DNA of 34,841 nucleotides, taken from assembly GCA_020847415.1 (NCBI GenBank), contig JADLBZ010000090.1, forward strand, positions 1-34,841. The letters are read 5' to 3'. The position numbers were made by a program, and so were the translations under genes. The notes under the pieces are model-generated. The model worked only from the letters and a program-made list of their open reading frames with translations. It searched no databases and was not told the origin of the DNA. This stretch comes from Planctomycetota bacterium. Its GTDB lineage: Bacteria > Planctomycetota > UBA8742 > UBA2392. Below, piece after piece: positions 571 through 15,214 of the stretch. How positions within the stretch are numbered: the first letter of the stretch is position 1; each line of letters opens with the position of its first letter.

Positions 571-1785
571 ATGCACATGCCTGGCAGCCCAACCGCGTCG
601 TACCGCGTCCTCCGGCGGGGCTTCAGCCTGCTGGAGCTGCTGGCTGTGATCAGCATCCTGGTCGTTGCCATGCTGGTGTTTGTCACCGTGCTGGGCAGCG
701 GCTCGGCAGGGCCGCCCCTCGAGCGCTCCTCGGTCCAGCTTTCCACCATGGTGGCGAACATCCGGCAGAATGCCTCGGTGCGGAAAGTGCACAGCGAGCT
801 GGTGCTGGATTACGTCAACGACCGCGCCGTGGCGCTGGCCCGTCGGCGCCTCATCACCTTCGCCTTCGAAGACGACGTGGCCAGCGGCAACATCATTGGC
901 CGCCGCGCCGGCGGCGCTGAAGTGCTGGCCAGCCGCTGGATGAACCTGCGCGACGGCAAGTGCCTCGACCTTCCTACGCCCCAGGCCTCGTTCACTCTGC
1001 CCTGGAACGAAACCTTTGAGGTCACCGGCGACTACGAGGGCCTGGCGGTCGCCTTTGACTACTGCCCCACCGGTGCTTCCACCGGCAATGTCGCCACCAT
1101 GGGCAGCGCCTTTGCGGTGACCGTGGCGGCTGCGCGCCCCGACAGCGTGCAACTGGCCCTGGCCTGCGGCGGCGCCAGCGTACAAAGCGCAACCTGGCTG
1201 GCCCTTTACCGCTGGCACACGGTGGAGGTGGCTGTCAGCCGTTACGGGGTGCACCTGTACATTGACGGGCGGCTGGACAGCGCGCCCATCAAGTCCAGCT
1301 TCACAGTGCCCTCGGCGGTCGGCTCGGACCTGCGCATTGGGGGCACGTCGTGCCGCGTGGACAACCTGGAGCTGTTCACGCTGGTTTCCAGCCAGACGCT
1401 GCAGCTGGAGGGCGTGCAGTTCATCGCGGAGGGCGTGGACCCTGTCACGGAAGGTACCGGCGGCGCAGAGGATATCTACCGCGACCTCACGCAGCCCCCC
1501 ACCAACGCGCCCGTCACAGGCCCGGGCAGCGGCACGCCGGGACCACCTGGCCTGCCGCCGGGCATGGACCTGCTGCCCGCCCTGGTGCACCTGTACTACG
1601 ACTCCTCGGGCAAGCTGGACCCCGCGCGCCACGCCGGCGCAGTGGACATCTACCTGGTGCACTACGAAGACGGCACCCTGCGCCGCATGCGCGTGCGCTT
1701 TCACCCCCTGGGTGCCGTTACCGCCGACGAACTGGACTACTTCCCCTGGGAAACCCCGCCCAACCCCCTTGGAGACGCCGGATGA
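571..1785 (+). CDS. Prepilin-type N-terminal cleavage/methylation protein (GspH-like minor pseudopilin) with LamG/concanavalin-like C-terminal region
   Basis: Leader then RRG^FSLLELLAVISILVVAMLVFVTV (class III signal peptide). C-terminal part has LYRWHTVEVAVSRYGVHLYIDGRLDSAPI...LRIGG...VDNLELF, typical of LamG-like jelly rolls. Confidence 0.8.
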   Translation: MHMPGSPTASYRVLRRGFSLLELLAVISILVVAMLVFVTVLGSGSAGPPLERSSVQLSTMVANIRQNASVRKVHSELVLDYVNDRAVALARRRLITFAFEDDVASGNIIGRRAGGAEVLASRWMNLRDGKCLDLPTPQASFTLPWNETFEVTGDYEGLAVAFDYCPTGASTGNVATMGSAFAVTVAAARPDSVQLALACGGASVQSATWLALYRWHTVEVAVSRYGVHLYIDGRLDSAPIKSSFTVPSAVGSDLRIGGTSCRVDNLELFTLVSSQTLQLEGVQFIAEGVDPVTEGTGGAEDIYRDLTQPPTNAPVTGPGSGTPGPPGLPPGMDLLPALVHLYYDSSGKLDPARHAGAVDIYLVHYEDGTLRRMRVRFHPLGAVTADELDYFPWETPPNPLGDAG

Positions 1786-4700
1786 TGCGCTCAGGGTTCC
1801 GCGGCGCAGCCGTGATGATGGTGCTGGTGGTGCTGGCCCTGCTGCTGGCGCTGGCCGTCTCGTTCACGTTCCTGATGATCCAGCAGGAGGGGTCCAGCGT
1901 GGCTGCGCTGGGCGGCGAAGAAACCCGCATTGTCACTCGCACGGGCGCCGACCACGCCATGGCGCGCCTGAACTATCGCAACCGCCTCAACGAGTTCGCT
2001 CGCTGGTGGGCCACCGACCCCAGCCAGGCAGCCATCACCGCCGACGACAACCCGTTCCTGGACTGGCAGGGCGAAAGCGTCGTGGACCTGCTCTACGACT
2101 TCGAGGGCGGCGGCGGCAACGCACCCCTGTTCCCCGGCCTTGCGCCCGTGAATGGAAAGCGGCCCTTTGCCGTGGAGGACCCCAAGTCGCTGGTGCTGGG
2201 CCTGAACGTGCAGGACGAGAGCGGCAAGGTGAACTTGAACTTCGCCACGCCCGAAGTGATCGCCAACCTGCTCGGTTCCGCCACCGTGGTGGAGGACTCG
2301 ATCCCGGCGGGCGGCGTGTACCCCACCATCACGCTCACCGACGCCAGCTTCCTGGCCGCCTACGACGAGGACAGCAACCCGCGCGACAACCGCTACGGCG
2401 GCGGCGTGGTGGTGATTGACAGCCAGCTGCTGATCTACGCCAGCCGCATCGGCAACGTGCTGAATAACGTAGTACCGAACCCGCGCTACAACGGCGCCGA
2501 CAACAACAGCAACTCGTTCTTCCGGTGGCACTCGCCCGACCGCGTGATCCGCGCCGGGGCGTTCGTCACTTCGCCCACGGCCTACAAGGTGGCCTATTAC
2601 CGCTACCTGGCGGCGCCGGGGCGCGTCACGCTGTTCAACACCCTGGACGACGTGCGCGAGATTGCCTCCCTGCCCCGCTGGCTGGCGCCTGCCGGCAACC
2701 TGGGCCCCACCATCATGGGCCAGCGCCTGGACGGCTGGCCGGAAGGGCTGGACCCGGTGCAGTTCCAGCACCTGGAGCGCACAGCCACCACCATGGCGCC
2801 CAGCCCGCGCTACGACGGCGGGTTCTTCTACCCGCATGTGGTCAACTTCGGCGGCATGTCCCCCACCGGCGAAAGCGGCAAGGACCACCTGCAGGTCAAC
2901 TACGACACGGCCCAGGCCTTCCAGTCCAACTATTATGTGCCCTTTGACCCGCGCATCGGCGCCAACCCGGCGCAACTGGACCCGCGCTACACCGGCCTGG
3001 GCGAGGGCAACCTGGTGCGGCTGCGGCTGGCTGACGGCACCACCCACATCGGCATGACCCTGCAGGGCGGGCGCGGTCAAATCGCCATCTGCACCGCCGG
3101 CGACCTCGAGATCGCCCAGGGCCAGCCCTGGCTGCTGGACGTGGCGGAGCGCGCGGGCATCAACATCAACACGGCGCCCTTTGAAGTGGTGGCCGCCGTG
3201 TTCCATGGCGTGGGGCCGCGCGGCAAGGATCCCACCCAGCAGCCCATTACGCTGGACCAGGCCCACGCGGTGGCGTCGGAGATCCTGGCCCGCACCCGAA
3301 GCGGCGACAGGGACGACGCCTTCGAGACCCTGGACGAACTGCACGCCTTCCTGATTGAGATGTCCCAGCGCAACCCGCCGGTGCTGCATTCCGGCCAGGT
3401 AGCGGCATTCATGAACACCCAGCGGTTTCCGTACTCGCCGGTGCAGGGCATCGTCACGGCGCCCTTCACGTTCGAGACCATGGACACCTACCTGCTGGAT
3501 GCCTTTGCCACCCGCTACATGCCGTCGGGCGGCGCCCTGGCGCGCGAGGCTTTCCGCGAGTGGGTCACGGTGGGCTCGGACACCCCCGTGGAATGGCACT
3601 GGCGCACCTACCGCGAACTGGCCGAGGAAATGCGCCGCCCCCAGGGCAACATCTTCAACTTGTTCGCCTCCGGCACCGCCAACGGCAAGCTCACCGGGGT
3701 GCTGGAGCTGCCCTTCGTGCACTACCTGCAGGACGAGCGCCTCATGCGCAAGCGCATGGATGCGCCCTGGAACCGGCCGACGCCCCAGAACCTGTACCAG
3801 CTTGCCGACGACCAGCAGCGGCCCGAGAAGTTCTTCAGCACCGTGACTACCCTGCAGATGCCCAGCGGCCAGCAGGCCGAAGTGGGCGACCTGGAAGCCG
3901 GCATGTTCAGCATGTGGTACCGCCCCCAATGGGAGGACTACACGCAGAACCACTACCTGTATGATTCGGCCGAGCAGGAGTACAGCAACCGCATCAGCCT
4001 GCTGTGGTGGGGTGCGCGCCAGCGCGGCTACCGCCTGGCGCAGCACAACTCGGGCCTGACCCTGCGCGTCAAGGACCGCACGCTGGAGGAAGCCTACACC
4101 GAGCTGCGCTACGAGCTGGACCAGGACGGCTTCCGGCATGGCGACTGGTACCACCTGAACATGAACTGGAAGGGCACCCACCTTTCGCACCTGAACATGC
4201 TGCTCGACGGCGATTGCATCTCGGGCGGCGCCAACCCAGCCCGGCCCGAGACCAACCACACCTTCCGGCAGATCAACGGCGCCTGGGTCAGCCGCACCAG
4301 CACCTTGCAGCACGACCTGGAGGACTGCCGCCTGGGCAACATGACCACGACCGAGATCCAGGTGGACCCCGACGACATCGGGGCCTTTCCGGACCGCGGC
4401 GTGCTCATGATCGGCGACGAGGCCATTGAGTACAACGGCAACAACGGGCTGGCCCTGCTGAACATCTACCGTGGCCCGGCGATCCCGACCATTCCTAACT
4501 CGGCGGCGGGCGCGCGCGGCACCATCGCGGGCTATCACCCCCGCGGCTCCAGGGTCACGGTGTTCGGCTATGTCAGCCCCCTGCAGCAGCACAACACCAA
4601 CGCCACCGGCAACAACGAGCCGCGCTGGCCCTTCCTGCCTGCCACGCGCGGGCAGCTTGGCTCCGGCATGGGCAGCACGGGCATTTACCGCGTCTCCAAG

Positions 4701-7025
4701 GTGGGCACCAACAACATCCAGTACTTCCGCCCGCTGGAGCTGGGCCCGGATGCCGGCTTTGCCGGGGCCGGCGACGACACCCGCGGCGGCGATCCCTACC
4801 ACCTGCCGCTGGCGGACTACACCGGCATGCCCGAGCGCGGCATCGTGGCGGTCTACGGCTTTGCCTGGCGCAACTACCACCCCCCCGGCACGCCGGGCAT
4901 CCCGCAACCCGGCGTTTCTTTTCCGGATTTCAACCCGAGCCTGCCGGGCGTGGAAACGCAACTCAATGTGCCCGGCGACCTGCAGTTCGAGTATGTCGCC
5001 TACGACCGCATTGACCCGCAGGGCCTGCACGTGGTGCGCCGCTACGACGCCCAGTTCAACTACAAGGACCCCACCACCTGGTGGCACTTCCTGGGCACCT
5101 ACACCAACCTGATCTCGCCTTCCAACCCCGCCGACCCGACCAACGTGAACCAGATCGCCTTCTTCACGGCCGGCACAGCCGTCATCCCGGTCAGCCTCGA
5201 CGTGGACAACGTCAGCGGCTACCACGACCGCAGCGTGGTGCAGGTGGACGAGGAGTGGTTCTTCTACAACCGCAAGTGGGACGCCACCCAGGCTGTGGAC
5301 GCGACGCCCAACACGCCCCTGGGCGACGACGACAACCTGCTGAACCTGCTGATCGAGATCAGCCCCAACATCACCATGCAGTACGTGCTGGCCAACGCCG
5401 CCACCGACACCAAGAATCCCGCCGGCATGGCCAACTTCCGCGGCTACATGGGCACCGGCATCTACAACCACAATGCCGGTTCGCCGGTGCTGCCCACCTT
5501 TGCCACCACCGTAAAGACCGGCGAGCGCGACGTGGTGACGACCATCAACGGCAAGAATTACGACAAGGAACTGCACGTCATCCGGCGCCAGCGCCTTTAC
5601 CCCGGCAACGACGGCATCCCCGGCAACGGCGACGACTGCGAGATTGCCGCCTTCTTCGAGCACTGCGGCCACAACTACCAGCCCAACCCGCAGGCCAACA
5701 ACCCCTACAACAACTGCAACCTGTGCAAGTTCCCCACCGGTGAGTTGCCCGTGGAGATCCCCACCACCTTCACGTTTGCCGGGGCTGACCCGCGCACGCC
5801 GGAAGGTGCCGCCACCCAGGGCCACGGCGCGGACTTCGATTCCTTCGAGTTCCGCATGTACACCAAGGGCAACTTCCGCCTCTCGCAGGACATGAACGCG
5901 GCTGTCCCGACCGAGGGCGGCGACCTGCAGGTAAACACCCTGTTGCCGCCCAACCTGGGCGTGGTGCGCATTGACGACGAGCTGGTCGCCTACCGCGGCA
6001 CTGAGACGCGCCGCGTGCAGTTCACGGACCCGGTGACCGGCCAGACCGTGCAGGTGGACACCTACTGGCTGCTGGATGTGACCCGCGGGATCCTGGGCAC
6101 GCTGCCGGCCGCCCACGCGGGCGGCACACCCCTCATGAACATGGCCAGCCTGCGCGTGGGCCGGCCCCAGCAGGCAGGCGACCAGCGCACCGACCGCATC
6201 AGCCTGATCCTGGGCGAGGAAACGATGCGCAGCTACGGCTTTGCCCGCATTGAAGAACCCGGCGCACCCACGGAAGTCTTTGGCTACCAGAAATACGTCG
6301 AGACCCAGCAACAACAGAACGGCCTGCCCATCCGCATCGGCAGCATCACCTGCGGCGAGTACCACGACCCGGCCTGGCAGCAGGCCTTGTTCCGGGGCGC
6401 TTACGGCACCCGGGCACGGGCCTATTCGCAGCGGGCGCTGTTCTTTGACCAGCCGGTGCGCTTTCCGGACTGGTTCCCCGGCTTCCACGTCGAGCAGGGG
6501 GGCGCCCAGGGCGCCTGGCACCAGAACGAACGCCAGGGTGTGCCCGGCGCCGTCACGCCCGAAATCTCGCACATCCAGGGCTCGCTGGCGGTGCGCGCCG
6601 GAGTGGTGAGCGAGTTCAAGTGGCGGCTGGCCTGGCTGCCCCACGCCGACCAGGCGCGCTACCAGGATTCCATCGGGGCCAGGCTGGTGTTGCGCTTCCG
6701 GGGTCGCGGGCAATGGTCACGGCTGCCCGAGTGGAACGAAGCCCCGACCAACCGGCCCGGCGGCCTGTATTCGTTTGAGTTCACGCCCGGTGCAAGCAAC
6801 ACGCAGGACCTGGGCATGACGCTGTTCGAGCAGACCGAGGACTTCACGCGTCTGCGCGAGTCGCCGGGGGGCATCCTGGCGGATCGCGTGGAGTGGCGCG
6901 TGTACTTTTACTTCAAGCAGGACGCCTTCCTCCGCGAGGATTACAAAGCCACACCGCAGTTCGGCGGGGCGTCCATGACCGTGCGCCAGCTTTCGCGCGT
7001 GCTGCGCCACGAGGAGAAGCGCTAG
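1782..7025 (+). CDS. Giant GspK-like minor pseudopilin (about 1,747 aa)
   Basis: Likely start ATG at 1782 overlaps the previous stop (ATGATG). N-terminal hydrophobic helix MMVLVVLALLLALAVSFTFLMIQQEG; GspK-type GININTAPFEVVAAVFHGVG and DQAHAVASEILARTRSGDRDDAFETLDELHAFL. The upstream part of ORF 1350-7025 overlaps the preceding gene in another frame and is probably not used. Confidence 0.8.
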   Translation: MMRSGFRGAAVMMVLVVLALLLALAVSFTFLMIQQEGSSVAALGGEETRIVTRTGADHAMARLNYRNRLNEFARWWATDPSQAAITADDNPFLDWQGESVVDLLYDFEGGGGNAPLFPGLAPVNGKRPFAVEDPKSLVLGLNVQDESGKVNLNFATPEVIANLLGSATVVEDSIPAGGVYPTITLTDASFLAAYDEDSNPRDNRYGGGVVVIDSQLLIYASRIGNVLNNVVPNPRYNGADNNSNSFFRWHSPDRVIRAGAFVTSPTAYKVAYYRYLAAPGRVTLFNTLDDVREIASLPRWLAPAGNLGPTIMGQRLDGWPEGLDPVQFQHLERTATTMAPSPRYDGGFFYPHVVNFGGMSPTGESGKDHLQVNYDTAQAFQSNYYVPFDPRIGANPAQLDPRYTGLGEGNLVRLRLADGTTHIGMTLQGGRGQIAICTAGDLEIAQGQPWLLDVAERAGININTAPFEVVAAVFHGVGPRGKDPTQQPITLDQAHAVASEILARTRSGDRDDAFETLDELHAFLIEMSQRNPPVLHSGQVAAFMNTQRFPYSPVQGIVTAPFTFETMDTYLLDAFATRYMPSGGALAREAFREWVTVGSDTPVEWHWRTYRELAEEMRRPQGNIFNLFASGTANGKLTGVLELPFVHYLQDERLMRKRMDAPWNRPTPQNLYQLADDQQRPEKFFSTVTTLQMPSGQQAEVGDLEAGMFSMWYRPQWEDYTQNHYLYDSAEQEYSNRISLLWWGARQRGYRLAQHNSGLTLRVKDRTLEEAYTELRYELDQDGFRHGDWYHLNMNWKGTHLSHLNMLLDGDCISGGANPARPETNHTFRQINGAWVSRTSTLQHDLEDCRLGNMTTTEIQVDPDDIGAFPDRGVLMIGDEAIEYNGNNGLALLNIYRGPAIPTIPNSAAGARGTIAGYHPRGSRVTVFGYVSPLQQHNTNATGNNEPRWPFLPATRGQLGSGMGSTGIYRVSKVGTNNIQYFRPLELGPDAGFAGAGDDTRGGDPYHLPLADYTGMPERGIVAVYGFAWRNYHPPGTPGIPQPGVSFPDFNPSLPGVETQLNVPGDLQFEYVAYDRIDPQGLHVVRRYDAQFNYKDPTTWWHFLGTYTNLISPSNPADPTNVNQIAFFTAGTAVIPVSLDVDNVSGYHDRSVVQVDEEWFFYNRKWDATQAVDATPNTPLGDDDNLLNLLIEISPNITMQYVLANAATDTKNPAGMANFRGYMGTGIYNHNAGSPVLPTFATTVKTGERDVVTTINGKNYDKELHVIRRQRLYPGNDGIPGNGDDCEIAAFFEHCGHNYQPNPQANNPYNNCNLCKFPTGELPVEIPTTFTFAGADPRTPEGAATQGHGADFDSFEFRMYTKGNFRLSQDMNAAVPTEGGDLQVNTLLPPNLGVVRIDDELVAYRGTETRRVQFTDPVTGQTVQVDTYWLLDVTRGILGTLPAAHAGGTPLMNMASLRVGRPQQAGDQRTDRISLILGEETMRSYGFARIEEPGAPTEVFGYQKYVETQQQQNGLPIRIGSITCGEYHDPAWQQALFRGAYGTRARAYSQRALFFDQPVRFPDWFPGFHVEQGGAQGAWHQNERQGVPGAVTPEISHIQGSLAVRAGVVSEFKWRLAWLPHADQARYQDSIGARLVLRFRGRGQWSRLPEWNEAPTNRPGGLYSFEFTPGASNTQDLGMTLFEQTEDFTRLRESPGGILADRVEWRVYFYFKQDAFLREDYKATPQFGGASMTVRQLSRVLRHEEKR

Positions 7026-8114
7026 GTGACTCGCGCACGCCCCAGCGGCTTCACCCTGGTCGAGCTGATGGTCTCCATCGGCATCCTGCTTGTGCTGGGC
7101 GTGATGGTCATTGGCTTCCTGCGCGGGGCGCTGACCATGAGCCGCACCGGCACCTCGCGCGGCCGGGCCTACGAGACCGCGCAGACGGTGCTGCGCCTGG
7201 CTGCCAAGGACTTCTCGCAGGTGGTGGGCGAGCCGGGTCACCCCGATGCCCCCACCGACGACCTCGCCTTCGTGGTGATGCAGGACCCCTGGGGGCGCCA
7301 GCTGATCGCCTTCACCCGCGCGTTCGGCGAGCAGGGCGGCTCCCTTGCGGGCTACGACGCCGCCCGCGCGGCACCCACCCAGGGCTATGGCAGCGACTAC
7401 ACCGGCCGCAACGTGAACAGCTCCCTGCGCGGTACCCACGGCAACCTGGAGGTAGTCTGGATGCTGGAACCTTCCCGCGCCGGCACGCGGCTGTATCGCG
7501 CCGAGCGCTCGCCGCCGCAGGCGGGCGGGCTGATTGACCTGATGCTGGCCTGGGTCCAGCGGTACCCCACATCCGACCGCGACGACCTGGTGCCCTCCGC
7601 CGCCCTGCGCGAGACCATGCTGGGCGGCGAGCCCCTGTGGGACCAGTTCGAGCTGGTGGCCGAGAACGTGCTGGCCTTCAACGTGGAGTGCTGGGACGAC
7701 TGGCAGGGCCGCACTGCCACCTGGGATGGCGGCCCCACCGGCCCTGTCACCACCTGGAGCATCAGCCAGCGCCTGCAGCAGGGCAAGTACGCCCTGCCGC
7801 GGGCGATCCGCCTGACGTTGATTGTCGCGCCGGAGGACCCCATCCGGGCCGAAAGCACCCTGCAGGCCAACATCTCGCGCTCGGACGGCTTTGCGCCCCT
7901 GGAGAGCACCGCCAACTTCCCGGATGTCACCTCGGGCAGCGCGTACATCCGCGTCAACGGCGAGCTGATGGCCTACGGCACGCGGGCCTCGGGCACGCTG
8001 GGGGCGCTGGCGCGGGGGGCGCTGGGCAGCCGCGCGCAGGACCATGAGGCGGGCTCGACCGTGCTGGCAGGCGAGGCTTTCCAACGGGTGATCCAGTTCC
8101 CGGTTTCGCGTTAA
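7026..8114 (+). CDS. Prepilin-type N-terminal cleavage/methylation protein (GspJ-like minor pseudopilin)
   Basis: GTG start at 7026 right after the upstream stop; PSG^FTLVELMVSIGILLVLGVMVIGFLRGAL; J-like length and position. Confidence 0.8.
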   Translation: MTRARPSGFTLVELMVSIGILLVLGVMVIGFLRGALTMSRTGTSRGRAYETAQTVLRLAAKDFSQVVGEPGHPDAPTDDLAFVVMQDPWGRQLIAFTRAFGEQGGSLAGYDAARAAPTQGYGSDYTGRNVNSSLRGTHGNLEVVWMLEPSRAGTRLYRAERSPPQAGGLIDLMLAWVQRYPTSDRDDLVPSAALRETMLGGEPLWDQFELVAENVLAFNVECWDDWQGRTATWDGGPTGPVTTWSISQRLQQGKYALPRAIRLTLIVAPEDPIRAESTLQANISRSDGFAPLESTANFPDVTSGSAYIRVNGELMAYGTRASGTLGALARGALGSRAQDHEAGSTVLAGEAFQRVIQFPVSR

Positions 8115-8126
8115 CAGGGGCGGCCG

Positions 8127-8597
8127 ATGCGCCGGAACAGAGGCTTCACGCTGCTCGAGATCATGATCGCCTTCAGCATCCTGCTGGCGGGCGTGGTGGG
8201 CGTGTATGCCGTGTTCGCCGCCGGGCTGGTGGCCCACAAGCGCGCCGTGGACAACACCACAGCCGCGGTACTGGCGGGCAGCCTGTTCGATGACATCGCC
8301 GCCAATTACGACGTGTGGTACTACGACCGCGACCACGACGGGACGCCCGACCTGGGCGAGGACGGCAACAACAACGGCACGCCGGACTGGTTTGAGCTGG
8401 ACAGCGGCGGCCGGCCCCGCTACCCGGTGCCCCAGCGCGGCGGCTATCGCTACACGGTGCGCTACGAGCGCAGCGACGTGGTGCCGCAGGAGCTGTTCGT
8501 GACGGCGCAGGTCTACTGGCGCCAGGAGAACGCCGAGAAGTCGGCGACCTTTCGGCGCAGCATCTTTCTGAAGAACCTGCCCGAGCTGGAGCCGTAG
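8127..8597 (+). CDS. Prepilin-type N-terminal cleavage/methylation protein (GspI/PilV-like minor pseudopilin)
   Basis: MRRNRG^FTLLEIMIAFSILLAGVVGVYAVFAAG; small size; internal DRDHDGTPDLGEDGNNNGTPDW Asp/Asn-rich loop. Confidence 0.8.
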   Translation: MRRNRGFTLLEIMIAFSILLAGVVGVYAVFAAGLVAHKRAVDNTTAAVLAGSLFDDIAANYDVWYYDRDHDGTPDLGEDGNNNGTPDWFELDSGGRPRYPVPQRGGYRYTVRYERSDVVPQELFVTAQVYWRQENAEKSATFRRSIFLKNLPELEP

Positions 8598-8605
8598 CCC
8601 GGCTC

Positions 8606-9844
8606 TTACCCGCAGTGGTTGCCGTCCAGGGCCGCCGGGTCCACCCCGGCGGGCACGTGCATGCGCGCCAGGCCGCCCTCGCTGGTCTCGCGGTAGCGCT
8701 CCTGCATGTCTTCGCCCGTGGCCTTCATGGTACGCACCACGGTGTCGAAGGGGATCTCGTGGCTGCCGTCCGAGAGCAGCGCGTAATCGGCGCAGTCCAC
8801 GGCGCGCATGGCGCCCACGGCGTTGCGCTCAATGCACGGGATCTGCACCAGCCCCGCCACCGGGTCGCAGGTCAGGCCCAGGTGGTGCTCGATGCCCATC
8901 TCGGCCGCGTACTCGATCTGCGCCGCGGTGCCGCCCATCATCTGGGTTGCCGCCGCAGCCGCCATGCTGCAGGCGGTGCCCACTTCGCCCTGGCAGCCCA
9001 CCGCGGCGCCCGAGATGCTGGCGTTGGTCTTGACCAGGTTGCCCACCAGGCCGGCCGTGGCCATGGCGCGGATGACCGCCTTGTCGTCCACGTTCAGCAC
9101 CTCGCGCAGATAGCGCAGCACCGCCGGCACCACGCCGCAGGCGCCGCAGGTGGGCGCGGTCACCACCGTGCCGCCCGACGCGTTCTCTTCGCTTACAGCC
9201 AGCGCGTAGGCAGTCAGCAGCCCCGTGCGTTGCAGCGGGCCGGGGCGGCCCTTGGCCTGCTGGTGGTGGCGGTGGGCCTTGCGGCGCAGCTTCAGTGCAC
9301 CCGGCAGCACGCCGTGGCCCTCAATGCCGCGCTCGATGGCCTCCTGCATGGCCTGCCAGCAACGGGCCAGATAGTCCCAGACCTCGCGGCCTTCGCACTG
9401 CTCGACGTACTTCCACAGCGGCGCGTTGTGCTTCTCGGCCCAGGCCAGCAGCTCTTTCATGGTCTGCAGCGGGTACACCGAGGCCGCGGTCGCGCTTGCG
9501 CCGTCTTCCATCAACGCCCCGCCGCCCACGCTGTAGACTCGCCAGCTTGCGCCCGCGCTGCCGGTGTCGTCCAGCGCCTCAAAGAGCATGCCGTTGGGGT
9601 GCAGGGGCAGGCGCTCCCTGGCGCGCCACTGCAGGTCCAGCTTGCGCCGCGCAAACACCTGCTGGATGGCGACGTCGGTCAGGTGGCCCTTGCCGGTGGC
9701 AGCGAGGCTGCCGTACAGGGTCACGCGGTAGGAAGCGGCGGCCCCGTGGCGGGCCAGGAACTGCTCGGCGGCGCGCTTGGGGCCCATGGTGTGGCTGGCC
9801 GAGGGCCCGGCGCCGATACGGTAAAGCTCGCGAAGGGATTCCAT
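8606..9844 (-). CDS. sdaA: L-serine dehydratase / L-serine ammonia-lyase, iron-sulfur dependent, single chain
   Basis: IGAGPSASHTMGPKRAAEQFL, TAPTCGACGVVPAVLRYL, GLVGNLVKTNASISGAAVGCQGEVGTACSMAAAA, LGLTCDPVAGLVQIPCIERNAVGA: conserved motifs and cysteines of the family. Start chosen at MESLRELY; the ORF extends to 9862. Confidence 0.92.
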   Translation of the reverse strand: MESLRELYRIGAGPSASHTMGPKRAAEQFLARHGAAASYRVTLYGSLAATGKGHLTDVAIQQVFARRKLDLQWRARERLPLHPNGMLFEALDDTGSAGASWRVYSVGGGALMEDGASATAASVYPLQTMKELLAWAEKHNAPLWKYVEQCEGREVWDYLARCWQAMQEAIERGIEGHGVLPGALKLRRKAHRHHQQAKGRPGPLQRTGLLTAYALAVSEENASGGTVVTAPTCGACGVVPAVLRYLREVLNVDDKAVIRAMATAGLVGNLVKTNASISGAAVGCQGEVGTACSMAAAAATQMMGGTAAQIEYAAEMGIEHHLGLTCDPVAGLVQIPCIERNAVGAMRAVDCADYALLSDGSHEIPFDTVVRTMKATGEDMQERYRETSEGGLARMHVPAGVDPAALDGNHCG

Positions 9845-9907
9845 GGTGTGGTGACGCGTCAACAGTCCGGCCCGGCCGCGCCAGCGTAGTGCGCGGGCCG
9901 CCGCTGT

Positions 9908-10334: not shown

Positions 10335-10481
10335 TAGCAGGCCGTTGAAGAAGTCGCCGTTGGCGCCTACCTCAACGGAAAGCAACTGCCCGGCTCGCGG
10401 CGTGAAGCCGCTCGCCGACCGGCCCGTGCAGCCGCGCGGGCCGGGCAGGGCGTTGAAAAGGACTTTTTCAACGCCCTGCTA
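10335..10481. repeat. Inverted-repeat (MITE-like) intergenic element with three copies of a GCAGGSCGTTGAARA motif
   Basis: TAGCAGGCCGTTGAAGAAGTC at 10335-10355 versus the reverse complement of GACTTTTTCAACGCCCTGCTA at 10461-10481, plus a direct copy GCAGGGCGTTGAAAA at 10445-10459. Confidence 0.65.
10445..10479 (-). terminator. Perfect 15-bp stem / 5-nt loop hairpin immediately 3' of the DUF3540 gene
   Basis: GCAGGGCGTTGAAAA-GGACT-TTTTCAACGCCCTGC at 10445-10479, touching the stop codon (10479-10481). No U-tract follows, so it may be a processing or attenuation structure and not a canonical terminator. Confidence 0.5.
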
Positions 10482-11003
10482 ACCCAAATGAATCCGCTCG
10501 CCGTTCACGCTCACATCCTTGGCGGCGCGAATGTGCCTGGCATTCGCACGCTCATAGGCATCGCCCTGCACCACCGTGTGGGTGCGCCCGGCCCGCAACT
10601 GGAACAGTTCCTTCACCCAGCGCGCAGCCTGCCCGAACTTCTCCACGGCATGGCGCGCCAGCAGCTCCAGCCGCCCGGCCGTCACCTTTACCTGCGGCGC
10701 CTGCAGCTCAATGCCGCGCCCAGCCGCCAGCGTGATGCTGCCGTGGGGCGCATTCAGGCTGACATCCGCCGGGAAACTGAACGCCGAGTCGCCGCGGCCC
10801 TGCAGCACGCCAATCACGTACAGCGCCTCATCCTGGGCAATCACCAGCACCATGTCGCCAGCCGCGGGCCGGTATGGAAAGGCCAGCGCGTTTACAGCCG
10901 CTGCCTCGCGGCCCTCGTGCTGCACGCGCAGGCGCGGGCCTTCAATGGCCAGCACCAGGGCAGGGCCCAGGCGGGGTGCGGCGATGGTTGCAGTGTCAGT
11001 CAT
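10479..11003 (-). CDS. DUF3540-family T6SS-associated protein
   Basis: ALVLAIEGPRLRVQHEG...FPYRPAAGDMVLVIAQDEALYVIGVLQGRG...SITLAAGRGIELQAPQVKVTAGRLELLARHAVEKFGQAARWVKELFQLRAGRTHTVVQGDAYERANARHIRAAKDVSVNGERIHLG; fits DUF3540 and its usual neighbourhood. Confidence 0.75.
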   Translation of the reverse strand: MTDTATIAAPRLGPALVLAIEGPRLRVQHEGREAAAVNALAFPYRPAAGDMVLVIAQDEALYVIGVLQGRGDSAFSFPADVSLNAPHGSITLAAGRGIELQAPQVKVTAGRLELLARHAVEKFGQAARWVKELFQLRAGRTHTVVQGDAYERANARHIRAAKDVSVNGERIHLG

Positions 11004-11023
11004 GGTTCTCTTCCTTCTTGCTG

Positions 11024-12934
11024 TCAGGCCTTTGCCGGCTTGAAATTCTCGGCTTCCAACTGGTCCGGGTCCGTGCGCTTGACCAGCTTCTGGTTGGCGC
11101 GGTCGTAGCGGGCGCCGGTGTCCAGCGCCGCGTGCAGGTTCGCACCCAGCAGGTCGGCCCCCGTGAAATCCGCCAGTTCCAGCCGCGCGTGCGCCAGGAT
11201 CGCGTAGTGCAGCCGCGCCCCGGCAAACTTCGCCTGAGGGGCCTTCACGGCCTCCAGCACGGCTTCGCGCAGGTCGGCCTGTTCAAAGTCGGCCCCGGCG
11301 GCGGCTGTGGCGGCGAAGCTGGCCATGCGCAGCCCGGCACCGGCCAGAATTGCGCCGGCCATGTCGGCTCCGTCAAAGGTGGCGCCCAGCAGGGCAGCGC
11401 CCGCCAGGCGGGCCTTGGGCAGCCTGGCATCCTTGAACGACGCCTGGGTCAACTCAGCGCCGGAGAGGTCCGTGGCAGAAAGGTCCGCGCCCGTGAAGTC
11501 GCAGCGGGCAAAGCTGCCGCGCTTGAGGTCCATCCCGGCAAGGACCGACTTGCGAAAGCTGCACTTCTCAAACACGCCGCCCGCCAGCCCCACCGAGCGC
11601 AGGTCGGTTTCATCAAGGCCCGTGCCGGTCACCTTCGCGCCGGCCAGTGAGGCACCTTCCAGTTTGGCGCCGTCCACGGTGGCCTCAAAGATCACCGCGT
11701 CGCGAAGCACCGCCCGGCGCAAGTCCGCCTGCAGGAACACGGCATCGCGCAACGACGCGCCGGTGAAGTCCGCGCCCTCGGCCTGGGCCTGGCTGAAGTC
11801 GGCAGTGTCAAGTTTGGCACCGCGCAAGTTGGCCCCGCCCAGCCTGGCCCCCAGGAAGTCCGCCCCGGTCAGGTCCTGTCCTGCGAAGTTGAAGCGCGTC
11901 AGGTCAGTCCCTTCAAACACGCACCCTGCCAGCACTGCCCCGGCAAAGTCCACTCCCGCCAGCAGCGCCTCACTGAACTGCGCCTCGCGCAGGTCACAAC
12001 CGGTAAACTTCTGCCCGGCCAGGTCGCAGCGGTTGAATTCGGCCTGCGTCAGCAGGGCATCTTGAAACGCCACGCCCTTGAGGTTCGCGCTGCCGAAGCG
12101 CGCGGCAGTCAGCGTCGCACCCGAGAAGTCGGCCCCGGAAAGGTCCGCTTCCTCCAAGTCCGCCCCGGTCAGCGTGGACTTGCTGAACTTGGAGCCCGCC
12201 AGCCTGCAGCGGCGGAACACACAGCCGTCCAGGGCGCGGCTGGCAAGATCGGCGGCGCCGAAGGTGCTGTTGGCGAAGCTGCCCTCGACGCGGGCCGGCC
12301 AGTCGTTGATGCCCGAGTAGTCGCCGTCATCGGCGATCACACGCTGCAGGGCGGCACCGGCCAGTTGGCACCCGGTCCACACGCCGCCGATCATGACCAC
12401 GTCGGCCAGCACCGCCTCGCGCAGGTCGGCGCGATCCGCCGCGGCAAAGTTCAGCGTGGCACCGGTGAGGTCCGCCCCGCGAAGGGAGGCGCCCGCCAGT
12501 TCGCACTGGTCCAGGCCCGCCTCGCGCAGGTTGGCGCCGTCCAGCCGGGCACCCGAAAGACTGCTCGTCTCCAGGCCGGCACCGGACAGGTTGGCCCCGC
12601 TGAAATCCGCCCTGGCGGCAGACAGGCCGGGGGCATTCAACGCTGGGGCGTTCAGGTTCGCGGCCTTGGCGTCGTCCAGCCGGCAGTCGGACAGCACTGC
12701 ACCCGACAGGTTGGCGCCGACCAGCTTCGCACCGCCCAGGTCACAGACAAACAGCCGCGCCCCGGAAAGGTCCGCGCCGGAAAGGTCCGCGTTGCGCAGG
12801 TTGCAGCGCACGAGGGTGGCACCGCCCAGGCGCGCTCCCTTAAGGTTGTCGCTGGAAAGCTCCAACCCATCCAGGGTCACGCCCTTCAGGTCGGCGCCGG
12901 AGGCAAGCTTGGCCAGCAGTTCGTCGCGCGTCAT
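11024..12934 (-). CDS. Pentapeptide-repeat protein (636 aa, almost entirely repeat)
   Basis: Continuous A(D/N)LXX-type pentapeptides (NADLSGADLSGARLFVCDLGGAKLVGANLSGAVLSDCRL...) along nearly the full length. Confidence 0.92.
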   Translation of the reverse strand: MTRDELLAKLASGADLKGVTLDGLELSSDNLKGARLGGATLVRCNLRNADLSGADLSGARLFVCDLGGAKLVGANLSGAVLSDCRLDDAKAANLNAPALNAPGLSAARADFSGANLSGAGLETSSLSGARLDGANLREAGLDQCELAGASLRGADLTGATLNFAAADRADLREAVLADVVMIGGVWTGCQLAGAALQRVIADDGDYSGINDWPARVEGSFANSTFGAADLASRALDGCVFRRCRLAGSKFSKSTLTGADLEEADLSGADFSGATLTAARFGSANLKGVAFQDALLTQAEFNRCDLAGQKFTGCDLREAQFSEALLAGVDFAGAVLAGCVFEGTDLTRFNFAGQDLTGADFLGARLGGANLRGAKLDTADFSQAQAEGADFTGASLRDAVFLQADLRRAVLRDAVIFEATVDGAKLEGASLAGAKVTGTGLDETDLRSVGLAGGVFEKCSFRKSVLAGMDLKRGSFARCDFTGADLSATDLSGAELTQASFKDARLPKARLAGAALLGATFDGADMAGAILAGAGLRMASFAATAAAGADFEQADLREAVLEAVKAPQAKFAGARLHYAILAHARLELADFTGADLLGANLHAALDTGARYDRANQKLVKRTDPDQLEAENFKPAKA

Positions 12935-12937
12935 GGG

Positions 12938-15190
12938 CTATTTCCCCGCCAGCTTGGTGGCTTTCAGGTTGGCCCCGGCGAAGTCCGCCCCCTGGGTGTT
13001 GGCGTCCAGGAACTCGGCTTCATAGAAATTGGAAGCCTGGAACTGCCCCCCCCGCAGGTCGGTCTGTTCCAGCAGCGCGCGCAGAAAGTTGGCGTTGCCG
13101 CCCTTTGCCCCGGCCAGCACCGCGCGCCGCAGGTTGGCCTCAGAAAGGTCCGCGCCAAAGAAGCGCGCACCCGTGAGGTCCGAGCCGGGGAACTGGGCGC
13201 GACGCAGGTCCGCCCCGGCAAAGTCTGCCCCCAGCAGCCGCGAGCGCTCGAACACCGCGCCTTCCGCCTGCACGCCGGCAAAGGCGGCCTCGCTGAAGTC
13301 CGCGCCGTCGCTGCCACGCAGGCCCGTCAGCACGGCTCCCGCGAACTTCGCCCCCTTGGCGGCGGCACCGTCCAATGCAGCGTCCGGCAGCTCGGCCTTG
13401 CTGAAGTCCGCCCCGGTCAGGTCCGCCTCGGCAAACACGGCGGCGGGCCACTTGCCGCCCGCAAACACGGCGCCCGGCGCCTTCAGGCCGGTGCAGATCG
13501 CTTCGCTTCCCTGGGCGCCTGAGAAGTCTGCCTTGGCGGCCTTTACGCCCGATAGCACGGCGTTGTCCAGCACCGCGTTCTTGAGCATGGCGTGCTCCAG
13601 GCTTGCCCCGGTCAGGTCCGCGCCGGACAGGTCCGCCCCGGTCAGGTCCGCGCCGGAAAGGTCCGCCCCCGACAGCACGGCATCGCCCAGCTTGGCGCCC
13701 GACAGCCGCGCCCCGCGCAGCTTGGCGCCGTTCAGGTACGCCTCGCGCAGGTCCGCCCCGCTGAGGTCCTGGTTCGAAAGGTCCGCGCCCGAGAAGTCGC
13801 CCCCTTTGCCTTCGCCGCTGCGGGCAATAGCCGCCAGCGACTGCGGCGCAGCCTTGGCCGGCGCGGCTGCAGCGCGCAGGGCCTCTGCCACATCGTCATC
13901 CAGCAGCGAGGACAAATTAGCCCCTGAGGTCGCCGGCACTTTCAGGCCCTCGGCCTTGGCCTGCGCCAGCGCCTGCGAAAGCTCAGCCACCAGTTGCTCG
14001 AACTTCGGGGCAGGCGGCGCCCCGGCCGGCAGCTTCAGTCCCGCTGCAGCCGCTTCGGTGGCGGCCTGGGCCTCGGCCTGTTCTGCCAGCTTGTCGGCCT
14101 TGGCGAAGTCCGCCTCCAGCGCGGCTTTCTCGGCTGCGGGGTCCATGCCCGCTTCTTCGGGTTCTTCGGCGGGCTCGGCGGGCTCCTCCAACAGAGGCAA
14201 CAGGGCCTGCGCCGGGGCGGCTGAGCTGCCCAGGGCCTCCGAGACAATCAGGATGTCGCGGGCTTCGTCCCAGTCTGTGCCCGCGATGTTGACCACGCCG
14301 CGCCAGAGCAGCGTGATCTCTGCCTTGTGCGCGTCCACAAACAGCGTGTCCAGGTTCATGGGGGCCTCGCGCAGCCGCAATTCGTCGCCCTCGCGCAGCA
14401 ACACGCGCACGCGCAGGCCCGGCAGGCGGGTGCGGAACAGCGGCTGTTCGGGCCGCAGGTTCTCCAGCACCACTTCTTCGTCGCCGCGCAGGAAGCCCTC
14501 AATCTGCTGGTCTTCCGGCGCCGCGTTGAAGTAGGTCCAGTCGAAGTCCTTGGGCTGGGCGGGCCAGCGCTCCTTCAGCCAACGGTTATCGCAGGTGCCC
14601 TGTTTGCCGCGGCGCAGCTTCCAGGTGCGGTGAATGGGCCCGAAGCCCGCCGGCTGCGGGCGATCGCGGCGGCCGCCAATGAGGTGGCCCGGCAGTTCAA
14701 TGTTGGGCAGCAGGTCGTCGTCCACGCCTTTTCCGGCGGGGTTGGCCTCGAAGCCGGGCCCCCCCAGGGCGTGCGCCCAGGTGATGTCCACGCGCGTAAA
14801 CGGCTGCGGCTCGGTCATGCGCGCCGAGAGCAGGCTGCGCTGCCAGCCGCGATTGCCGATGCAGGCCAGCGCCTTGGACCACCCGCCCACGGCAAACTTG
14901 ACGCCGCACACGGGCAGCGGCTTGCCCCCCGGCGTGTGGCAGGCACCGGCCAGCAGCACATCGGTGCGGGGCTTGAACAACGCCAGGTCGGCGTCGTAGA
15001 GGGCTTCAGGGCGCTCGGTGGCGGAGAGGACGTCGCCTTCCAGGGCCGGCTGGGCGGGCAGGGGCTCGCAGATGCCGCCGTCCACCATGCGAAAAGCGGC
15101 CTTGACCACCAGGGTGGCAGTGTGGGCGGGGTGGTTCACGCGGCCGGTGAGAAAGCCGAACGTGAACGGGGTGCGGTTGCGGATCTCCAT
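12938..15190 (-). CDS. DUF2169 domain protein fused to C-terminal pentapeptide repeats
   Basis: N-terminus MEIRNRTPFTFGFLTGRVNHPAHTATLVVKAAFRMVDGG...FKPRTDVLLAGACHTPGGKPLPVCGVKFAVGGWSKAL is typical DUF2169. Ala/Glu-rich linker, then ADLSGADLTGADLSGADLTGASL repeats. Start chosen at MEIRN; the ORF extends to 15211. Confidence 0.9.
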   Translation of the reverse strand: MEIRNRTPFTFGFLTGRVNHPAHTATLVVKAAFRMVDGGICEPLPAQPALEGDVLSATERPEALYDADLALFKPRTDVLLAGACHTPGGKPLPVCGVKFAVGGWSKALACIGNRGWQRSLLSARMTEPQPFTRVDITWAHALGGPGFEANPAGKGVDDDLLPNIELPGHLIGGRRDRPQPAGFGPIHRTWKLRRGKQGTCDNRWLKERWPAQPKDFDWTYFNAAPEDQQIEGFLRGDEEVVLENLRPEQPLFRTRLPGLRVRVLLREGDELRLREAPMNLDTLFVDAHKAEITLLWRGVVNIAGTDWDEARDILIVSEALGSSAAPAQALLPLLEEPAEPAEEPEEAGMDPAAEKAALEADFAKADKLAEQAEAQAATEAAAAGLKLPAGAPPAPKFEQLVAELSQALAQAKAEGLKVPATSGANLSSLLDDDVAEALRAAAAPAKAAPQSLAAIARSGEGKGGDFSGADLSNQDLSGADLREAYLNGAKLRGARLSGAKLGDAVLSGADLSGADLTGADLSGADLTGASLEHAMLKNAVLDNAVLSGVKAAKADFSGAQGSEAICTGLKAPGAVFAGGKWPAAVFAEADLTGADFSKAELPDAALDGAAAKGAKFAGAVLTGLRGSDGADFSEAAFAGVQAEGAVFERSRLLGADFAGADLRRAQFPGSDLTGARFFGADLSEANLRRAVLAGAKGGNANFLRALLEQTDLRGGQFQASNFYEAEFLDANTQGADFAGANLKATKLAGK

Positions 15191-15214
15191 GCCGCCGTCC
15201 TGTCGTTGCACTTG

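Follow-up and report, generated by a model that had tools for sequence, protein, structure and literature searches.

Two neighboring genes of a Planctomycetota bacterium carry multiple copies of one small β-barrel module, that of phage tail tips and tail fibers, within proteins that have the character of pseudopilins. The genes lie in a stretch of 34,841 nucleotides (contig JADLBZ010000090.1, assembly GCA_020847415.1), which was analyzed at its full length and is referred to here as the window; it belongs to a 3.58-Mb draft genome. They are the second and third genes of a cassette in the order H-K-J-I, all on the + strand, and encode a giant GspK-like protein, K, with at least four copies of the module, and a GspJ-like protein, J, with one. 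We consider it probable, if far from certain, that the cassette encodes a modular minor-pseudopilin tip complex with the phage-type barrels serving as domains for bracing or contact. The copies, scored with a profile of 65 modules from 16 genomes, none of the studied family (the other-family profile), are located in the window as follows.

1782-7025, + strand: K, giant GspK-like protein of 1,747 amino acids (aa); NF037980 (GspK) matches at aa 7-65 with E=1.1e-4, and T2SSK is sub-threshold.
2325-2462, + strand: K0 (K aa 182-227), probable decayed half copy; 0.8 bits, not significant alone.
4347-4574, + strand: K1 (K aa 856-931); 40.2 bits with the other-family profile; own-genome profile search E=7.4e-10.
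5193-5495, + strand: K2 (K aa 1138-1238); 28.2 bits over the full profile; K1-K2 hhalign E=3.6e-5.
5934-6146, + strand: K3 (K aa 1385-1455), with a β-hairpin insert; 38.3 bits; own-genome E=1.3e-12; PHROG_1101 (tail) E=1.4e-4 for the segment.
6234-6437, + strand: K4 (K aa 1485-1552), degenerate; 10.3 bits, where the best shuffled K sequence reaches 5.6.
7026-8114, + strand: J, GspJ-like pseudopilin of 362 aa; N_methyl 26.7 bits (cut-off 21.2, exceeded); prepilin helix, pilin β-sheet, module and last strand.
7872-8066, + strand: module J (J aa 283-347); 40.1 bits; own-genome E=2.2e-19.

K1, K2, K3 and J are the four segments in which an initial annotation, made from the letters alone, had read a repeated motif by eye; the peptides are in frame and the coordinates were right to within a few bases. 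That annotation had also claimed that the giant K and J share one module, and the other-family profile indeed finds all four segments, far above shuffled sequences: K and J were each shuffled 2,000 times, and the highest-scoring of these 4,000 sequences reached 6.1 bits against this profile. Its count, however, understated the observation, K4 and K0 having been missed. K4 keeps FRGAYGT, without H..G..V, and clear copies stand at its position in loci L043, L047, L048, L051 and L052. The K0 region reaches an hhalign probability of 25% in the J-versus-K comparison, and full copies are found at its position in L043, L044, L046, L047 and L048. Outside K and J, the module profile has no significant match anywhere in the 3.58-Mb draft genome.

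The copies in K are interrupted by inserts. K1 has a loop insert, RGPAIPTIPNSAAGARGT, within the RG.GT turn, and K2 is divided by an insert of ~45 aa between its E..Y and RG.GT halves. The inserts between these halves occupy window positions 5277-5450 in K2 and 6006-6090 in K3, and their length differs among relatives. These long variable inserts suggest that large loops can be accommodated by the barrel at a single site. Two further stretches in K, at aa 149-165 and aa 460-475, follow the pattern N.N.A..EV.

K and J were aligned with orthologues from related genomes, and profiles from 15 orthologue sets were compared using hhalign; the named relatives, whose J proteins are 53-61% identical, are metagenome genomes of Planctomycetota. 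All segments are conserved across the orthologue alignments of both proteins, and six residues in the C-terminal part of J are invariant in 15 J orthologues, namely R309, E313, R330, G334, H340 and G343, which are the motif residues. The profile-profile scores are significant for K1-J (7.9e-9), K3-J (3.4e-9), K1-K3 (5.9e-8) and K1-K2 (3.6e-5). For K2-K3 and K2-J the match is limited to the RG.GT half, at a probability of 40-53%. This raised the question of whether K2 is a false copy, which we rejected because the other-family profile covers K2 fully; judged from its sequence, it is a genuine copy whose two halves are separated by a long insert. The best of 116 control comparisons scored 31 bits, versus 43-48 bits for the true K1/K3/J pairs, and the top-scoring controls fall at two places that proved to be further, degenerate copies. 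The distant modules were originally found with a family-seeded profile, and hence this chain of searches cannot be called entirely blind; neither the shuffles nor the phage matches depend on that profile.

It might be argued that the resemblance reflects convergence of short low-complexity motifs, since the motif is short and single-sequence Pfam searches returned nothing significant. The matches, however, are full-length profile matches far above shuffled sequences, the profile-profile E-values are as low as 3.4e-9, and the structural matches described below extend over the whole domain. Chance convergence thus has a negligible probability and is ruled out by the profile-profile, shuffle and structural comparisons. 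These comparisons establish, at the level of sequence profiles, that the segments are homologous modules.

The module is a small β-barrel of phage tail tips and tail fibers. The initial annotation had remarked on a likeness to phage-tail-like proteins, and this is borne out by tail-family profiles, by a baseplate hub and by predicted viral structures. PHROG_1101 (tail) and PHROG_11439 (tail fiber) match J with E-values of 4.5e-6 and 2.5e-5, and PHROG_1101 matches K with 6.1e-4; the tail-protein match lies over the module. The families matched most often by a set of 26 diverse modules are PHROG_4406 (virion structural), 1101, 2885 (baseplate wedge) and 11439; each of them matches 11 to 18 of the 26, with 15 to 18 of 26 for PHROG_1101 or 4406. 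A profile search of the PDB identified residues 495-554 of the JBD30 baseplate hub (domain E=0.008) and, weakly and twice, a minor tail protein of 1,296 aa. A better-scoring PDB match, to a BMC-H protein, was set aside as an apparent chance match (31 residues, domain E=8.5). No match was obtained when the window's J module was compared with phages by tblastn; a consensus drawn up by eye from the module alignment matches structural proteins of cyanophages and pelagiphages. No Pfam model passes its cut-off for the module, the nearest being Rcc01698_C (PF23666), from a gene transfer agent, whose gathering score is not reached (14.5 bits for K3 versus 27; best of 26 modules E=1.2e-4). The PHROG families 1101, 11439, 4406 and 2885, the JBD30 hub and, weakly, the C-terminal domain of Rcc01698 resemble the module in sequence profile and predicted fold. 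They differ in that the phage and gene-transfer-agent modules are parts of virions or transfer particles, whereas those described here lie within the pseudopilins of a cell.

An AlphaFold2 model of J (mean predicted local distance difference test score, pLDDT, 80.6; ~90 over the module) consists of a helix, at residues 11-64, and a β-sheet. When compared with predicted viral structures in BFVD, this model gave 58 matches at E<=0.001, several with root-mean-square deviations of 1.2-2.3 Å over 72-92 alignment columns and TM-scores that correspond to ~70 residues; named matches include tail, tail fiber and structural proteins. The length of the alignments and the sequence matches fit the module as the region aligned, which was not printed in the search output. 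The J model thus has the same fold as these viral proteins. For the copies in K, of which the model is poor, the indications of a common fold, which the initial annotation had named as a test, are indirect: the predicted order of strands in K1, K2 and K3 resembles that in J, and 7 of the 18 top viral matches of the K model are also among J's top 50.

In the J model, the pilin strands at 260-267 and 275-279 are followed by the module at 283-347 and then by the last strand at 350-357. The predicted structure thus places the barrel within the final hairpin of the sheet, between the penultimate and the last strand, which is the position reported for the extra domain of the pilin ComZ. In XcpW, the GspJ homologue of Pseudomonas, strand 11 contacts helix 1 of XcpV, the GspI homologue (PMC6211770). 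By analogy, strand 350-357 of J is presumably the equivalent of XcpW strand 11, and a domain inserted just before such a strand would be expected next to the I subunit and close to K.

Since the module is a phage tail domain, the segments might also be prophage remnants or the result of a recent capture from a phage. The distribution of the module makes this very improbable. It was found in 187 of 292 sampled Planctomycetota genomes (E<=1e-4), with several genomes of the phylum lacking it, compared with 10 of 145 genomes in the phylum of a Spartobacteria genome. Sixteen further planctomycete loci were read, picked non-randomly from the listed strong matches. In thirteen of them a K-like and a J-like gene, both with modules, are neighbors, and a gene for a small I-like prepilin is found downstream; two have a J-like gene at a contig end, and one is a lone 1,040-aa frame without pilin neighbors. 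The J proteins in these loci have one module each and the K proteins 2 to 6, and several relatives possess an extra prepilin gene upstream, of ~170-270 aa. At one locus (L053, 7111-8737), a J-like frame of 542 aa has two modules, not one.

In many families of the phylum, then, the modules of K and J are found at the same positions, and these position classes cluster on a tree of modules. The number of label changes on the tree is 15 for all five classes, versus 48.7 when shuffled, 3 versus 20.0 for J, and 4 versus 16.0 for K1. Moreover, the only PHROG matches in these genes besides the module are weak ones to pilin or N-terminal regions. The conserved positions and the tree together rule out a recent prophage event. 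The tree is weak, with 60 columns and few supported branches, and it therefore speaks to position-specific descent and not to the order of duplications. Because copies from the same position group together across families, we conclude that the set is old and vertically inherited; the module may have an ancient origin in a phage tail. Duplication, as the initial annotation had suggested, is therefore upheld in kind, as an old, vertically inherited homologous set, while the tree does not separate duplication within the operon from several captures.

Among the matches in the Verrucomicrobiota control, 5 of 6 examined have PHROG_1101 at the module only, in stretches of ~900-1,050 aa and with no Pfam pilin match. 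Two of the six adjoin LamG or CBM domains (L090 in genome G397 and L088 in genome G362; LamG, CBM_11 or CBM_5_12), in large non-pilin proteins.

The two remaining products of the cassette flank K and J.

571-1785, + strand: H-like minor pseudopilin of 404 aa; IV_pilin_GFxxxE 22.6 bits (cut-off 16.3, exceeded), N_methyl 20.3 bits, just below its cut-off.
8127-8597, + strand: I/PilV-like small minor pseudopilin of 156 aa; N_methyl 33.0 bits, over its cut-off, and PilV TIGR02523 E=4.4e-8, below its cut-off.

As a description, the term pseudopilin used for K and J in the initial annotation stands, given the prepilin signals, the gene order and the modeled pilin fold of J; as a formal family assignment it does not, for the curated cut-offs are not reached. 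K scores 21.9 bits with the GspK model NF037980 (cut-off 130) and J 16.2 bits with the GspJ model TIGR01711 (cut-off 64.85); removal of the module from J gives 16.9 bits, no informative change. K and J are therefore not classed as GspK and GspJ. K nevertheless shows the GspK trait of a prepilin N-terminus without Glu5: by direct reading its N-terminus is RGAAVMMVLVV (RG/AAVMMVLVVLALLLALAVSF), with no Glu at position 5. J, in turn, combines a class III prepilin signal (N_methyl) with a modeled pilin fold, as expected of GspJ. The cassette resembles XcpUXWV, the GspH-GspK-GspJ-GspI set of the type II secretion system (T2SS; PMC6211770), in having four subunits, a K-like protein without Glu5, and prepilin signals in J, I and H. 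It differs from T2SS minor pseudopilins in the size of K (~1,750 aa), in the barrel inserted in J, and in falling short of the curated GspK and GspJ models. The Verru_Chthon cassette proteins A to D (TIGR02600, 02598, 02599 and 02596) are also similar, with weak N-terminal matches of the large protein A to K and of C to J. This family was rejected, as the scores are 7.7 versus 332.3 bits for TIGR02600 and 24.1 versus 256.5 bits for TIGR02599; four Verrucomicrobiota genomes tested gave no significant module match.

A LamG/ConA-like stretch (WHTVEVAVSRYGVHLYIDGRLDSAP) is possible at aa 192-260 of the H-like protein, below Pfam thresholds; Laminin_G_3 gives a sub-threshold E=0.048 for this protein, and Laminin_G_2 E=0.046 for an orthologue. 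With such a stretch, the H-like protein may be a modular pilin as well, the third in the cassette.

The gene order, the prepilin signals, the missing Glu5 of K and the modeled fold of J indicate that H-K-J-I would make up a complex of minor pseudopilins at the tip, either of a type IV filament or of a type II secretion pseudopilus. Three secretins and six T2SSE-family ATPases are encoded elsewhere in the draft genome, so that a filament machine is available to the cassette. K and J would be modular pilins carrying copies of one small phage-tail-type β-barrel. The barrel of J, placed before the last pilin strand, is expected to stand out at the filament top, next to I and K. In the JBD30 hub (PMC11445458), the small barrel domain reaches out from one domain to touch the following one, and it is described as stabilizing, not binding; by analogy, the barrels of K and J may serve as braces and contact domains. 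Together they would give K and J a large exposed tip in contact with substrates or surfaces.

Several points weigh against this interpretation. The K model is poor (mean pLDDT 54.7), and its modules could not be superposed. With K and J both below the curated GspK and GspJ thresholds, the tip position of the complex would follow from gene order, prepilin signals and fold. The genome contains further prepilin clusters, which makes the assignment of the cassette to one filament ambiguous. We found no published ligand, secretion or pilus data for any member. Lastly, that residues 495-554 of the JBD30 hub are its domain VI, the small barrel, is our own reading.

Two other functions overlap with the proposed brace or contact role, and with each other. 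In one, the main alternative though a doubtful one, the modules are adhesion units, each barrel binding a glycan or a ligand on a surface, which would make the tip a multivalent adhesin akin to the lectin and von Willebrand factor A (vWA) modular pilins. The occurrence of the module in phage tail-fiber and host-interaction proteins, its association with LamG and CBM domains in two Verrucomicrobiota genomes, the weak LamG match in the H-like neighbor and the frequency of binding domains in modular pilins (PMC8179133) are in line with adhesion. However, the conserved E, R, G, H and G do not differ among the copies in phages, K and J, although the contexts of these copies are very different; a structural core would account for this better than a ligand pocket. 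The stabilizing role described for the JBD30 barrel and the long unrelated loop inserts in the K copies also speak against adhesion.

In the other alternative, which we regard as unlikely, the cassette is a type II secretion tip for recruiting exoproteins and driving them out, with the barrels as substrate docking sites. The gene order and the GspK/GspJ/GspI-like character would agree with this, as would the secretins and T2SSE ATPases in the genome and the extra upstream prepilin gene in several relatives. Yet the secretin and ATPase genes all lie outside the window, and no pilin gene was recognized near those inspected; moreover, K, at ~1,750 aa, far exceeds known GspK proteins in size, and its entry into a secretin channel is doubtful. 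We also considered a link to the crateriform structures and dextran uptake of planctomycetes (PMC5394234), and discarded it, as nothing in this analysis speaks for it and the module is missing from several genomes of the phylum.

The draft genome contains at least 16 prepilin-type genes, with other clusters of two to five such genes, without the module, on contigs C223, C194 and C293. In the window, the pilin cassette is followed by genes for an L-serine dehydratase (SDH_alpha, SDH_beta; 8606-9862, - strand) and then by a type VI secretion cluster (10479-34108, - strand). The cluster encodes VgrG (Phage_GPD), a ClpV-type AAA protein, TssG, TssF, Hcp, TssC (VipB), TssB (VipA), an ImpA-N protein, a TagF-N protein, IcmF, DotU and VasE/TssK; the module profile matches none of its proteins. 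Downstream of the VgrG gene (10479-15211, - strand) are genes for a DUF2169 protein that contains pentapeptide repeats, for a second, long pentapeptide-repeat protein and for a DUF3540 protein. These three may serve the type VI system as a set for loading or as cargo.

Pilins onto which a further domain has been grafted are a known and common type (PMC8179133). ComZ of Thermus thermophilus, a DNA-binding pilin proposed to reside at the pilus tip (PMC6561018), is alike in that a domain is inserted between the penultimate and last strands, in being encoded beside other minor pilins, and in having GspK as its closest reported fold. It differs in that DNA binding was shown for ComZ and in that its insert is a large β-solenoid, whereas here the insert is a small phage-tail-type barrel repeated across two adjacent subunits. 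PilB and PilC of Streptococcus sanguinis (PMC8179133) likewise have a functional module grafted on a minor pilin, and modeling of PilB is compatible only with the filament tip; they have one module per pilin, of known adhesion domains, whereas here the same module recurs in two subunits and in many copies. Open-access full-text literature yielded nothing relevant on pseudopilins with phage-tail domains in Planctomycetes, or on the Verru_Chthon cassette. The module itself is known from phages, though unnamed in Pfam, and what appears to be new, within the literature searched, is its combination with pseudopilins.

The giant prepilin proteins of planctomycetes resist annotation because their repeated part is a phage-type module that curated Pfam and NCBIfam models do not recognize. 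Tentatively, it may be that much of the Planctomycetota has turned a phage tail-tip or tail-fiber barrel into a building block for the tip of a pilus-like filament of its own, with 3 to 7 copies over two neighboring subunits, so that the end of the filament would be in part a phage-tail-type recognition device. The finding links phage tails and type IV filaments, usually thought of as separate, through a shared repeated domain kept across many planctomycete families, and it defines a gene set for a probable filament tip in a phylum in which pili and the uptake of macromolecules are poorly understood. The arrangement is widespread in the phylum, and may show how these bacteria built a large filament tip from the parts of a virus tail.
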